A stretch of 22,546 nt of DNA. Origin: a virus. The translations under genes and the position numbers were made by a program. Positions within the stretch are counted from its first letter, which is position 1. Each line of letters starts with the position of its first letter. Positions 7,512 through 14,282 of this stretch are shown in pieces. The notes beneath the pieces were generated by a model. The model worked only from the letters and a program-made list of their open reading frames with translations. It was not told where the DNA came from and did no database searches. The stretch is from IMG/VR virus record IMGVR_UViG_3300025131_008556, positions 1 through 22,546 of that record, one strand, 5' to 3'.

Positions 7512-7836
7512 TCTACAACCCGATGTGCGGCGCACCATTGCCCGCAACACGCTCAACAAGGGGCCGTACGTGCTGTTTTCCTTTCCCGACGGCCAAAGCC
7601 CCCTTATCCTGCTGGATGCTCTCACGGTCAAACAGGCCCAACGAGCCCAGTCTGAACTCGGACGCATCGTCCGCCAACTCGAGGATCAACGCCATGAAGA
7701 AGTCCGGACACAGCTCGTCGGGCAAGAACCCGACCAAGGCCTCCAAGTCCCACGGCCACCCCAAAGCCAAAGCCAAGGGGACGAAGAAGGGCTACACCCA
7801 GAAAGACCCGGCCAAGCAGTATTAGACGGGTCGTAA
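7498..7836 (+). CDS. Hypothetical protein with C-terminal overlap (TTG start)
   Basis: The open frame gives 112 residues from the TTG at 7498, with GGAGG at 7483-7487 ten bases upstream. The first 65 residues look genuine (PYVLFSFPDGQSPLILLDAL, then a helix SELGRIVRQLEDQR). The last 47 residues are Gln/Pro/Glu low-complexity and are read from the same bases as the Lys-rich gene at 7694-7825 in another frame. Either both frames are translated, or this protein's tail is passive. A shorter product is not possible because no earlier stop exists in this frame. The function is unknown. Confidence 0.5.
   Translation: MPLANLQPDVRRTIARNTLNKGPYVLFSFPDGQSPLILLDALTVKQAQRAQSELGRIVRQLEDQRHEEVRTQLVGQEPDQGLQVPRPPQSQSQGDEEGLHPERPGQAVLDGS
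7694..7825 (+). CDS. Lys-rich basic mini-protein, nested in another frame
   Basis: This encodes 43 residues from the ATG at 7694, with GAGG at 7681-7684 nine bases before it. Twelve residues are Lys and one is Asp; the core HPKAKAKGTKKG resembles histone H1-type tails. It lies wholly inside the open frame 7498-7836, shifted by one base. Its composition matches the other basic mini-proteins of this window (11011-11193 and 14121-14282), which argues that this frame is the coding one here. It may bind DNA or a negatively charged head surface; this is inferred from charge only. Confidence 0.55.
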   Translation: MKKSGHSSSGKNPTKASKSHGHPKAKAKGTKKGYTQKDPAKQY

Positions 7837-10049: not shown

Positions 10050-10955
10050 ATGGCATCTATAATGGGAACCAGCGCCTGGCCGCACCACACGACCCTGCGT
10101 GGTATCGACATCATCGTCTTCGACGAGTGGGAACAGCGCCCCCGCAAAGGGCGCGATATCTTCAACGTGAGAGACTCCACCCAGTACCAGGAAGACACCA
10201 AGACCGCCGGCGGGGCCGGGGTTATGACCGAGATCAGCGAAGGGCAATCTCTGTCCTACGTCAGTCTCAACGAAGGCTTCCGCAACACGTTCACCCATCT
10301 GGACTACGGGAACGGGATGCGGATTACCCGCCGCATGTTCCGCGAAGACCTCTACGGCACCATGGAAGAACAGGCCGCCGAGTTGGGGCGCATGGCCGTG
10401 GCCACGGAAGAGACCCTGTTGGCCAACCATTTCATCAACGGCTTTGACTCCAACTTCACGGGACCGGACGGGGTGGAACTGTTCTCTACCGCCCACAACC
10501 GGGAAGACGGCTCGACCTACTCGAATACGTTGACCAACGCAGCGGATCTGAGTCAAACGTCGTTCGAGCAGGCCATGATCGACTTTTCGGATTTCCGCGA
10601 CGGCGGGGGCAAGCGGCTCATGATCGAGCCGGCCCTGCTGCTGGTGCCCAAGGAGTTGCGCTTTGAGGCGCACCGCTACCTTAAAAGCGCCTACTCGCCC
10701 GAAGACGACACCAATGCGTCTAATCCGCTGCAGGATATCGTTCAGGCCTGCGTGTGGAACTACCTGACCGACACGGACGCCTGGTTCCTGGTGGCGCGCA
10801 AGGAAGACCACTTCCTGCTGCTCTACGAGCGCGAAACGCCGTGGACCGATTACGAGGTGGAGTTTGAAAGCAAGGACCATAAGACGAGTTTAATGTTCTC
10901 TCAGAGTAGCGGATGGGCCGATCCACGCGGAGTCTTCGGCTCGCCGGGCGTTTGA
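10050..10955 (+). CDS. Major capsid protein (HK97-fold, gpT-like)
   Basis: This encodes 301 residues from the ATG at 10050, with GGGGGTG just upstream at 10038-10044. The length, the SLNEGFRNTFTHLDYG region (extended arm to A-domain), the segment NFTGPDGVELFSTAHN that is typical of Mu gpT-type and related capsid proteins, and the final strand-rich ETPWTDYEVEFESKD all fit a HK97-fold head subunit. Its position after scaffold and decoration-like genes agrees. It would self-assemble in hundreds of copies into the icosahedral head. There is no visible N-terminal delta domain or protease gene, so the separate scaffold probably guides assembly. Confidence 0.85.
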   Translation: MASIMGTSAWPHHTTLRGIDIIVFDEWEQRPRKGRDIFNVRDSTQYQEDTKTAGGAGVMTEISEGQSLSYVSLNEGFRNTFTHLDYGNGMRITRRMFREDLYGTMEEQAAELGRMAVATEETLLANHFINGFDSNFTGPDGVELFSTAHNREDGSTYSNTLTNAADLSQTSFEQAMIDFSDFRDGGGKRLMIEPALLLVPKELRFEAHRYLKSAYSPEDDTNASNPLQDIVQACVWNYLTDTDAWFLVARKEDHFLLLYERETPWTDYEVEFESKDHKTSLMFSQSSGWADPRGVFGSPGV

Positions 10956-11010
10956 TAACTCAAGCAATAACAACCCTAGAGCATTTGTGCCTTCTAAGAA
11001 AGGGGAAATA

Positions 11011-11193
11011 ATGCCTCGAATTAAACGCAGAGTCACACCCACCCAAAGGGGCGTTCATAGCCGAGGGGCCAGTACTCATAGTTGGCGGCCTAGAAAGCGC
11101 AAGGCAAAGGCCAAGCCCAAGGCGAAGGCAACCCAAAGAGGGGTGCATAGTCGGGGTGCCAGCACCCACAGTTGGCGGCCTAGAAGAAAGTAG
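11011..11193 (+). CDS. Basic mini-protein with exact duplicated motif
   Basis: This encodes 60 residues from the ATG at 11011, with AAGAAAGGGG at 10996-11005. Twenty-one residues are Arg or Lys and none is acidic. The motif TQRGVHSRGASTHSWRPR occurs twice (residues 11-28 and 41-58), joined by a KAKAKPKAKA linker like those in histone H1 tails. The two copies are identical in protein but differ at nine codon third positions. This protein directly follows the major capsid gene. Strong positive charge suggests binding to packaged DNA, RNA or the inner head wall. No known family is recognised. Confidence 0.75.
   Translation: MPRIKRRVTPTQRGVHSRGASTHSWRPRKRKAKAKPKAKATQRGVHSRGASTHSWRPRRK
11041..11184 (+). 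repeat. Two 54-base coding repeats with only synonymous differences
   Basis: Copy one lies at 11041-11094 and copy two at 11131-11184, separated by 36 bases encoding a Lys/Arg-Ala linker. Aligned codon by codon, nine of 18 codons differ, all at the third base and none changing the residue. That shows an old duplication held constant by selection on the protein. Confidence 0.9.
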
Positions 11194-11310
11194 GCCAGTG
11201 GGTATTAGCGTGTAAAAAATCTCGCCCCCTAGAAGGCCTAGGCGGGTTCACTACAGAGAGGGGGAAGTAGCTCTCGGGCCAAACCCCCTACACAACCAAG
11301 GAAAGAAACA
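11194..11310. other. Leader region with stem-loop before the first beta-helix gene
   Basis: This 117-base gap has no gene. It holds a run of six A (11214-11219), a stem-loop formed by CCCCCTAG (11225-11232) and CTAGG plus GGG (11238-11246, one bulged C) with an AAGGC loop, and a GA-rich stretch (11254-11268). AAGGAAAG at 11298-11305 is the ribosome-binding site for the gene at 11311. The stem-loop is not followed by T bases, so it is not a terminator on the plus strand; it may stabilise a processed transcript. Confidence 0.35.
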
Positions 11311-12213
11311 ATGGCCAATCTCAATTTCGTACACGGACGCTGGATCAACTTGGACAAACCGGGGGGCCAGGTCTTCTTTGTCGGGGGCGGCACCGTCGCC
11401 GTAAACGGCAAGAGCGCGTCGGATACCAACCACGGCTTGACGCCCGAACAACCCCTGTCCACCATCGACGGCACGGCCGGTGCCTTTGCCAAGGTAGTGG
11501 CCGGACGCGGGGACACCATTGTGGTCCTGCCTGGCGCCGTCACGGTTACGGCGGCCATCGCTTTCGATACGGCCGACGTTACCTTGACCGGCATCGACCC
11601 CCAGGGCAACATCAACGCCTCGGCCATCCAGGTCAACGGGGCTATCGACGGCATCTCCGTAACGGGAGCCAACGCTGTCATTGAGAATCTGCACTTTCCC
11701 GCCGGCAGCACAGCGGCTCAGACGGCCGTTATCAATGTGGCGGCGGCGGGCACTACCATTCGCAACTGCACCTTTGCCTGCGGGGCCAACAACCTGGACA
11801 CCGTCACCATCGCCGCAGCGGGCCTACACACCGTAGTCGAGCACAACCGCTTCTACGTAGAAGCCAACGGCCCCGACAGCGCCGTGGTAATCGAAGATGC
11901 GGCCGCGCACTTCGTGGAGATCAAGGACAATATCTTCAACGGCATGAACACCACCAACTCGTGGGACGAGGCGGCGGTGGAATCGACGGTGGCGCATTTG
12001 TCGTGTCTGGTGACGCGCAACCAGTTCATCATGATCGGGGCGCACAGCATCCAGTTTTCAGCAGCGGCTACGGGCATCATTTCCTACAACGTGTTCGGCA
12101 ATGGCACCTTGACGGCGATGCTGGATCCCGGATCCTGCATGTGCTTTGAAAACTACGAAGCCGACGCTGTAGACGAGACGGGCCGCATCTTCCCGACTTC
12201 AGCCGCTTCGTAA
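11311..12213 (+). CDS. Parallel beta-helix structural protein, copy A
   Basis: This encodes 300 residues. It opens with NFVHGRWINLDKPGGQVFFV, followed by a Gly/Ala/Thr-rich ladder of short strands (AIQVNGAIDGISVTG, AVIENLHFPA, TTIRNCTFACG, TVVEHNRFYV, VEIKDNIFNGM) typical of right-handed parallel beta-helix proteins, with stacked Asn and aromatic positions. Proteins with this opening occur beside capsid genes in many environmental phages and are thought to be virion surface or fibre parts. The GRGDTIVVLPGAVTVTAAI segment is shared with the next gene, so the two are tandem paralogs. AAGGAAAG is well spaced from the ATG. The exact virion location is unknown. Confidence 0.75.
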   Translation: MANLNFVHGRWINLDKPGGQVFFVGGGTVAVNGKSASDTNHGLTPEQPLSTIDGTAGAFAKVVAGRGDTIVVLPGAVTVTAAIAFDTADVTLTGIDPQGNINASAIQVNGAIDGISVTGANAVIENLHFPAGSTAAQTAVINVAAAGTTIRNCTFACGANNLDTVTIAAAGLHTVVEHNRFYVEANGPDSAVVIEDAAAHFVEIKDNIFNGMNTTNSWDEAAVESTVAHLSCLVTRNQFIMIGAHSIQFSAAATGIISYNVFGNGTLTAMLDPGSCMCFENYEADAVDETGRIFPTSAAS

Positions 12214-12318
12214 AAAGTAAGAAACCCGGGCCGGTGCCGGGACCATCCCGATGTAGCCGGTAGGGTGGGGCGAGTAGGCCCGACAGCCCGAAGCCCCTTT
12301 ACTTGAAAAGGAAAACCC
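12214..12318. other. GC-rich leader between the two beta-helix genes
   Basis: No gene is visible in this 105-base gap. It contains nested short inverted repeats (CCCGG near 12228 with CCGGG near 12237) and several CCG/CGG blocks that could fold in the RNA. AAAAGGAAAA at 12306-12315 is the ribosome-binding site for the gene at 12319. I see no terminator (no stem followed by T bases) and no clear promoter. Confidence 0.35.
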
Positions 12319-13371
12319 ATGGCAACTGCACGTTCGTTTCCCTATCACATTGTAGCGCAGGGCGGCATCACCGCCTTCAACAACCCGGGCGGCCAGGTCT
12401 GGTACGTGGGCGCCTCGGGTTATGTAGCGGCGGGGGGCGGATCCGCTCCGGCCGACACCCTTTCGGGCAAGTCGCCCCAAAAGCCGTTTGCCACCATCCA
12501 GAAAGGCCTGGACTCGGCGGTGGCGGGCCGGGGCGATATTGTCGCCGTCCTGCCCGGGGCCTACACCATCACCGCGGCCCTGACCATGTCCAAAGACGAC
12601 GTGACCTTGACGGCGGCCCAGTCTGTCGGCCCGCACGAGTATCCCAACGTCACCATCGTCTGCGCCACCGACGTAAGCGAAATCGAGATCAACGCCAACA
12701 ACTGCACGGTGGCCAGCCTGGCTTTCGACGACAACGTCACGGCGGCTACGGTCAATACGGCCATCATTGACGTGAACACCGCCAGTACGGCCACCGATTA
12801 CACGGGTACCCGGATTATCAACTGCTGGTTCGATATGGTGGGCATGACGGACTCGGACAAGGACGGTATCATCCTGGGCACCGACGCCACCGACGGCGCC
12901 TTGAAGTCCCTGGTCCAAGGGTGTACCATCCTGGATGCGGGCCAGAACGGCATCACCATCAACGTGGGGTCCGAGTACAGTGAAATCCGCGACTGCAAAA
13001 TCTACGATGCAGCAGACCTGACTCAGTATGGGGTAGAAGTGCTGGCTACCTCCGTCACGATAGAGGGGTGCGATATCCTGGTCAGCTCAAACTTGCCCGG
13101 CGCCTGTATCCACAACGGTGTAGGCGCCGCTCGACTGGTGGCCAACAACAACACCCTCCACGCCTGGGGCGCTGACACCACGGCTATTCTGGCCATCGCT
13201 ACGGCCACGCAACGCACAGCAGCCAACTGGCTGACCGCTACGGCGGTAGGCAATCTGGCCGACTACATCACCGACAATACTTCGCCTTCGGCCGACGCCA
13301 ATGTGGCCGGCTGGTTTGCGGCTGATTCGCCGCAGGCCGCCTTTGACACGCCGACCGACGACGGAGCCTAA
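12319..13371 (+). CDS. Parallel beta-helix structural protein, copy B
   Basis: This encodes 350 residues and is a paralog of the gene before it. Both share GGQV-[FW]-[FY]-VG near the start, a GRGD-[IT]-[IV]-x-VLPGA-[VY]-T-[VI]-TAA core and a DVTLT strand. The remainder is a ladder of strands with repeated Asn, Thr and hydrophobic positions (IEINANNCTVASLAF, GTRIINCWFDMVG, SEIRDCKIYDAAD, TSVTIEGCDILVSS), fitting a longer right-handed beta-helix. The end is Asp/Thr/Ala-rich. It probably forms a trimeric or monomeric surface appendage together with copy A. Strong ribosome-binding site AAAAGGAAAA. Duplication followed by divergence is the simplest origin. Confidence 0.75.
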   Translation: MATARSFPYHIVAQGGITAFNNPGGQVWYVGASGYVAAGGGSAPADTLSGKSPQKPFATIQKGLDSAVAGRGDIVAVLPGAYTITAALTMSKDDVTLTAAQSVGPHEYPNVTIVCATDVSEIEINANNCTVASLAFDDNVTAATVNTAIIDVNTASTATDYTGTRIINCWFDMVGMTDSDKDGIILGTDATDGALKSLVQGCTILDAGQNGITINVGSEYSEIRDCKIYDAADLTQYGVEVLATSVTIEGCDILVSSNLPGACIHNGVGAARLVANNNTLHAWGADTTAILAIATATQRTAANWLTATAVGNLADYITDNTSPSADANVAGWFAADSPQAAFDTPTDDGA

Positions 13372-14120: not shown

Positions 14121-14282
14121 ATGCCACGTCGAAGAAGTCCTGTAGGGAGAGCCGCGCAAGCAGTAGCTAAGAAACGCGCCCAGCCTGTTCCCAAAAGAGC
14201 TGTAAAAAAGTATGGCAAGACATTGGGGGGCGGTCGTTCTTCGCGCAAGCGTCCCAGCGGCAGAACCAGTCGAGGCTTCTAA
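14121..14282 (+). CDS. Arg/Lys-rich basic mini-protein
   Basis: This encodes 53 residues from the ATG at 14121, with AAAGGA at 14108-14113 seven bases before it. Eighteen residues are Arg or Lys and none is acidic; it starts with MPRRRSPVGR, has a PVPKRAVKKYGK middle and ends in RKRPSGRTSRGF. It starts 27 bases after the previous gene and ends 11 bases before the connector gene. The charge pattern resembles protamine-like or nucleic-acid-binding peptides and matches the other mini-proteins at 7694 and 11011. The role is inferred from charge and location only. Confidence 0.65.
   Translation: MPRRRSPVGRAAQAVAKKRAQPVPKRAVKKYGKTLGGGRSSRKRPSGRTSRGF

Follow-up and report, generated by a model that had tools for sequence, protein, structure and literature searches.

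The mini-gene that follows the major capsid gene in the window (the whole stretch of DNA analysed, a phage record of 22,546 nucleotides) is a real gene under purifying selection, because its two repeat copies diverge at third positions only and their codon identity is close to that of independent choice. As far as the collections show, it is probably an accessory gene specific to this lineage that sits in an insertion slot, rather than a conserved partner of the capsid, because most junctions behind related capsid genes are gene-free, the closest relative carries an endonuclease there and others carry different basic proteins. The features are collected in Table 1.

Table 1. Features of the capsid-fib1 region in the window and of the slot in the closest relative
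Feature	Position	Strand	Basis
Major capsid protein gene, Mu gpT-like, immediately upstream of mini-gene	10053..10955	+	Pfam, PHROGs
Junction (insertion slot) from capsid gene to next conserved gene	10956..11310	+	comparison of relatives
Shine-Dalgarno GAAAGGGG, 5 nt ahead of mini-gene ATG	10998..11005	+	sequence
60-aa hyperbasic mini-protein gene	11011..11193	+	ORF translation, composition
Repeat copy 1, TQRGVHSRGASTHSWRPR	11041..11094	+	comparison of copies
Linker KRKAKAKPKAKA between repeat copies	11095..11130	+	translation
Repeat copy 2, same 18 residues, nine synonymous differences	11131..11184	+	comparison of copies
fib1 leader RNA, downstream of mini-gene: short stem UCUC/GAGA and hairpin GGGGG-AAGUAG..CCAAA-CCCCC	11220..11289	+	covariation
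Next gene, named fib1 here, conserved in relatives	11311..12213	+	no Pfam or PHROG match
Endonuclease VII-family gene in slot	L069 3955-4653		Pfam E 8.6e-24

A repeated peptide under purifying selection

The product of the mini-gene, MPRIKRRVTPTQRGVHSRGASTHSWRPRKRKAKAKPKAKATQRGVHSRGASTHSWRPRRK, is laid out as MPRIKRRVTP-TQRGVHSRGASTHSWRPR-KRKAKAKPKAKA-TQRGVHSRGASTHSWRPR-RK. Translation bears out the sequence-only reading, which had counted 21 basic and no acidic residues: there are 13 Arg and 8 Lys without any Asp or Glu, a net charge of +21, and each 18-residue module contains one Trp, two His and four Arg. The position behind the major capsid gene, claimed in the same reading, is established by the matches of the preceding gene (Pfam Mu-like_gpT, 3e-12, and Phage_capsid_4, 3e-12; PHROG head proteins to 3.5e-25). 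With 21/60 basic residues, the mini-protein falls within a protamine-like definition of very high Arg/Lys content without acidic residues, and such an extreme positive charge suits a putative nucleic-acid- or capsid-binding protein. Two further small basic proteins are encoded in the window (7694-7825 and 14121-14282), and charge alone is thus not specific. AlphaFold gave a mean pLDDT of 67, a pTM of 0.13 and no secondary structure, which as a single-sequence prediction is weak evidence that the mini-protein may be without a confident fold.

Comparison of the two DNA copies confirms that the 18-residue repeat occurs twice and that nine of its 18 codons differ, each at the third base only and all synonymously. 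The 18-mer has 13 synonymous and 41 non-synonymous sites by the Nei-Gojobori count, and the chance that all nine changes are silent is (13/54)^9 = 2.7e-6. Simulated sets of nine changes never kept the peptide (0/400,000 at each of kappa 1, 2 and 5). With nine synonymous changes and zero non-synonymous ones, these simulations uphold the earlier claim that selection acts on the protein to preserve the repeat. Identical codons are shared between the 54-nt copies at nine of 18 positions, compared with 8.0 expected from independent draws on this phage's codon usage. Because codon identity matches independent codon choice, the synonymous sites look saturated, and the copies therefore appear to have long been separate with the peptide constant throughout. 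Gene conversion was considered as the cause of the identical repeats and rejected, since it would also have wiped out the synonymous differences. The last five codons of the repeat (SWRPR) are identical in DNA too, so divergence between the copies is not uniform, and recent gene conversion may have covered a short tract at the repeat's 3' end. A degenerate pattern covering the motif's first part has no other occurrence in the window (0/100 shuffles), and RNA folding of the two copies yields nothing beyond shuffles. That the ORF is spurious and untranslated is scarcely credible in the face of third-position-only divergence and a strong Shine-Dalgarno sequence.

No relative of the mini-protein was found in Pfam, PHROGs, NCBIfam, PADLOC, PDB, GenBank phages, plasmids or GTDB, in agreement with the earlier statement that no family with this motif is known. 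A match to NCBIfam BchO (E 0.06) lies far below the family cut-off and was rejected. The IMG/VR search returned only a near-identical contig of the same phage; the collection scans require an exact 8-residue stretch, so that strongly diverged versions could escape them. This second contig (3300025112_000031, 45 kb) is 99.98% identical to the window over 5.6 kb including the mini-gene, and its other end matches the right-hand part of the window; it would be the same phage, with ends as expected of a circularly permuted genome. The contig breaks inside the pair formed by fib1 and its tandem paralogue (12319-13371, 38-39% identical over about 140-150 residues). A fibre or beta-helix nature of fib1 is a guess. 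Among annotated phages whose capsid proteins are more distantly related (29-33% identical), the capsid gene is followed by ordinary proteins of 96-321 aa, not hyperbasic ones, and one phage of this group has a 30-aa ORF with 8 basic residues. A literature search for hyperbasic proteins beside phage capsid genes found nothing direct.

A variable slot behind the capsid gene

Capsid-based scans gave 31 and then 80 loci, of which 59 contain both the capsid gene and fib1; by a crude criterion these represent 37 distinct junctions, some of them still close relatives of each other. The junction is gene-free and 58-140 bp long in 32 of the 37, and enlarged in the other five: the window, L069, L034, L035 and L103. 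Hyperbasic repeat proteins occupy four of the five enlarged slots (the window included) and an endonuclease occupies one. The closest relative, L069, whose capsid protein is 83% identical, carries a 232-aa endonuclease VII-family protein in the slot and no mini-protein. No orthologue of the mini-gene was found beside the capsid gene in the Mu gpT-type relatives, which have either a gene-free junction or, in L069, L034, L035 and L103, other genes. The expectation of conservation beside capsid genes therefore failed, as relatives with capsids up to 83% identical are without the mini-gene altogether. This absence refutes a virion component conserved across the group, but it does not refute a role in this phage.

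The same comparison bears on the idea that the mini-protein is a capsid-binding cement or assembly factor, in which each module would dock onto the shell at an acidic site, with the pair bridging subunits. The mini-gene does adjoin the capsid gene, and the exact identity of its modules is what the occupation of equivalent sites would predict. However, relatives with 39-83% identical capsid proteins lack the mini-protein, and the slot occupants of other lineages have no significant full-length similarity to it. We regard a cement role as unlikely.

The other occupants of the slot are basic in different ways. L034 has two Arg-rich repeat proteins (147 aa, +44, and 125 aa, +40), L035 has one (119 aa, +37), and L103 has a Lys-rich protein (74 aa, +17) in which 20 residues are duplicated in tandem, with almost no DNA difference between the copies. 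At this sensitivity the slot proteins of L034 and L103 have no relatives in IMG/VR except L035, which was found via the capsid gene. The L103 protein matches phrog_13634 over 21 lysine-rich residues only, which was taken as composition.

L034 and L035 agree at 99.7% of positions over 3.6 kb on one side of the slot and at 99.5% over 2.2 kb on the other; these near-identical phages count as one lineage. Their slots measure 776 bp (L034 3943-4718) and 287 bp (L035 3580-3866) and share only short similar patches. Because the two phages are near-identical outside the slot and different inside it, the contents of the slot seem to change fast. The slot proteins of L034 and L035 have common N-termini (MPVRRRVNPQ and MPIRRRVNPQ) and a C-terminal RRRANPQ..RRY with a rearranged middle, which suggests recombination among the repeats; mis-assembly of this repetitive stretch is possible. 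Such a difference between phages 99.5-99.7% identical around the slot would be expected of arms-race cargo, that is, of a host-directed late or injected effector in which a basic peptide binds the host nucleoid, RNA or a defence nuclease. T4 IPI, an inhibitor of a restriction enzyme, offers a precedent (PMC9026906), although the mini-protein has no match in Pfam, PHROGs, NCBIfam or PADLOC, and we consider an effector fairly unlikely.

The variability of the slot may also be read as tolerance, with a short repeat-built ORF as a selfish or nearly neutral insert that does little for the phage. The slot is empty in most cases, its occupants are singletons, and in the nearest relative an endonuclease VII-family gene lies there. 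Nevertheless, nine synonymous changes and no non-synonymous one need sustained selection, though possibly in an earlier host genome, which leaves a neutral insert quite unlikely.

The N-terminus MPRIKRRVTP of the window protein resembles those of the L034 and L035 proteins, with 16-24 of 5,000 composition shuffles as good over the first 16 residues. Full-length similarity to the L034 and L035 proteins is not significant in the shuffle test, nor is that to the other slot occupants. Because the nearest relatives of the window are without any such gene, independent acquisition of the window and L034/L035 proteins is at least as likely as common descent.

Two other small basic proteins were observed outside the slot. 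The first is a Lys-rich protein of 39-51 aa, usually ending in KQY (window 7694-7825; L059 1012-1152, L041 4694-4816 and others), whose gene lies between the portal and scaffold-like genes in nearly all relatives and is kept in relatives without the mini-protein; Pfam does not match it, and its PHROG match is very weak. The second (window 14121-14282; L051 1751-1912 in reverse-complement coordinates) is Arg/Lys-rich, with 53 aa and a charge of +18, and differs at three residues between two otherwise almost identical strains. In the same shuffle test this second gene scored no better than shuffles.

A conserved leader RNA downstream of the slot

Between the slot and fib1, most relatives have an RNA element composed of a short outer stem and a hairpin G(G)GGG-GAGUAG...CNAAA-CCCC(C), with the conserved hairpin letters GAGUAG / CNAAA. 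It was found upstream of fib1 in L004, L006, L011, L013, L015, L016, L031, L069, L070, L073, L078, L082, L085, L088, L100, L103, L106, L109 and L121, and in part also before the second paralogue in the window (about 12227-12300). Changes on both sides of the named pairs occupy 28 cells, compared with 9.4 in shuffles (21 sequences); ten pairs were named, and this count includes columns 21 and 90, which never pair. The covariation score is 0.391, compared with 0.152 in shuffles (0/500) and at most 0.146 when slid. An Rfam search, with Mu-gpT-DE as one candidate, matched no family. It is possibly a new cis-acting RNA of Mu gpT-type phages.

Since the leader RNA starts 26 nt past the stop codon of the mini-gene, the mini-protein might act as an RNA-binding regulator, for example of this element, and an Arg-rich peptide encoded beside a covarying RNA ahead of the next gene would fit such a role. 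However, most relatives without the mini-protein keep the same element, so the RNA does not need the protein, and regulation of this kind is very unlikely. Because relatives without the mini-gene keep the element, the leader RNA is, on this comparative evidence, independent of the mini-protein.

A candidate polycation of the phage head

The explanation we favour, though tentatively and at somewhat less than even chances, is that the mini-gene is a lineage-specific accessory gene for a probably unfolded polycation with two equal binding modules that would bind phage DNA or the inside of the head and enter the head with the DNA. Counted in its support are the coding selection on the repeat, the strong Shine-Dalgarno sequence right after the capsid gene, the charge of +21 in 60 aa, the lack of a confident fold, the hyperbasic repeat proteins in the same slot of three other records (L034, L035 and L103), the N-terminal resemblance to the L034 and L035 proteins, and the precedent of the T4 internal proteins. 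Counted against it, most relatives do without the mini-protein, so that this capsid type does not need it; L034 and L035 amount to one lineage, and, as the slot occupants have no significant full-length similarity to the mini-protein, a role shared with them is suggested by charge, repeats and position; and the window's two further small basic proteins make charge alone unspecific. Under this explanation, the accessory gene would have been inserted downstream of the capsid gene and ahead of the leader RNA that precedes fib1, and its small, probably unfolded product would be translated from the capsid region. Each 18-residue module may be a single unit that binds nucleic acid or an acidic surface of the capsid, with the KRKAKAKPKAKA linker tying the two together. 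The polycation would most likely enter the head with the genome, neutralising part of its charge, and would be delivered or lost along with the DNA, as has been proposed for the small basic internal proteins of T4. Late expression, DNA binding and presence in the virion are inferred, whereas the gene itself, its coding selection, its absence from relatives and the other basic repeat proteins in the slot were observed.

The internal-protein locus is said to vary among T-even phages. The T4 internal proteins are small and basic, with about 300 copies in each head; they bind DNA when salt is low and are co-packaged with it; IPI inhibits a restriction enzyme, and the roles of IPII and IPIII are unsettled (PMC9026906). 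Our best guess, by analogy, is that the mini-protein is comparable to them in kind, being likewise small, basic, phage-encoded and among head genes (60 aa, +21, directly after the capsid gene). However, no sequence similarity to IPI, IPII or IPIII was found (Pfam, PHROGs), and by sequence it is not a member of their family. The T4 proteins are of 8-20 kDa and have a propeptide that targets them to the prohead core, whereas the mini-protein has two 18-residue repeats, no known propeptide, and is known here from its gene. Protamine-like proteins of eukaryotic dsDNA viruses (baculovirus P6.9, ascovirus P64, adenovirus VII and mu) are likewise polycationic, of low complexity and virus-encoded; the viruses and sequences are unrelated, however, the mini-protein has Trp and a defined repeated motif, and DNA condensation by it is hypothetical. 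The capsid-fib1 junction also behaves like the endonuclease insertion sites beside phage structural genes, as L069 has an endonuclease VII-family gene there, although the window mini-gene encodes no nuclease.

A broader reading, possible but doubtful, is that a cassette site of fast turnover lies behind the Mu gpT-type capsid gene, where different lineages would each, independently, gain or reassemble polycations made of repeats that serve as phage 'protamines' or injected cargo, with the number and order of repeats remodelled by recombination and the peptide repeat under strong purifying selection. Outside T4, little is known about the small basic proteins found in phage heads, and annotation usually misses genes of such short length and low complexity. 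A site occupied by different basic repeat proteins in phages that are 99.5-99.7% identical would be a natural system for studying the function of such proteins and what drives their turnover.
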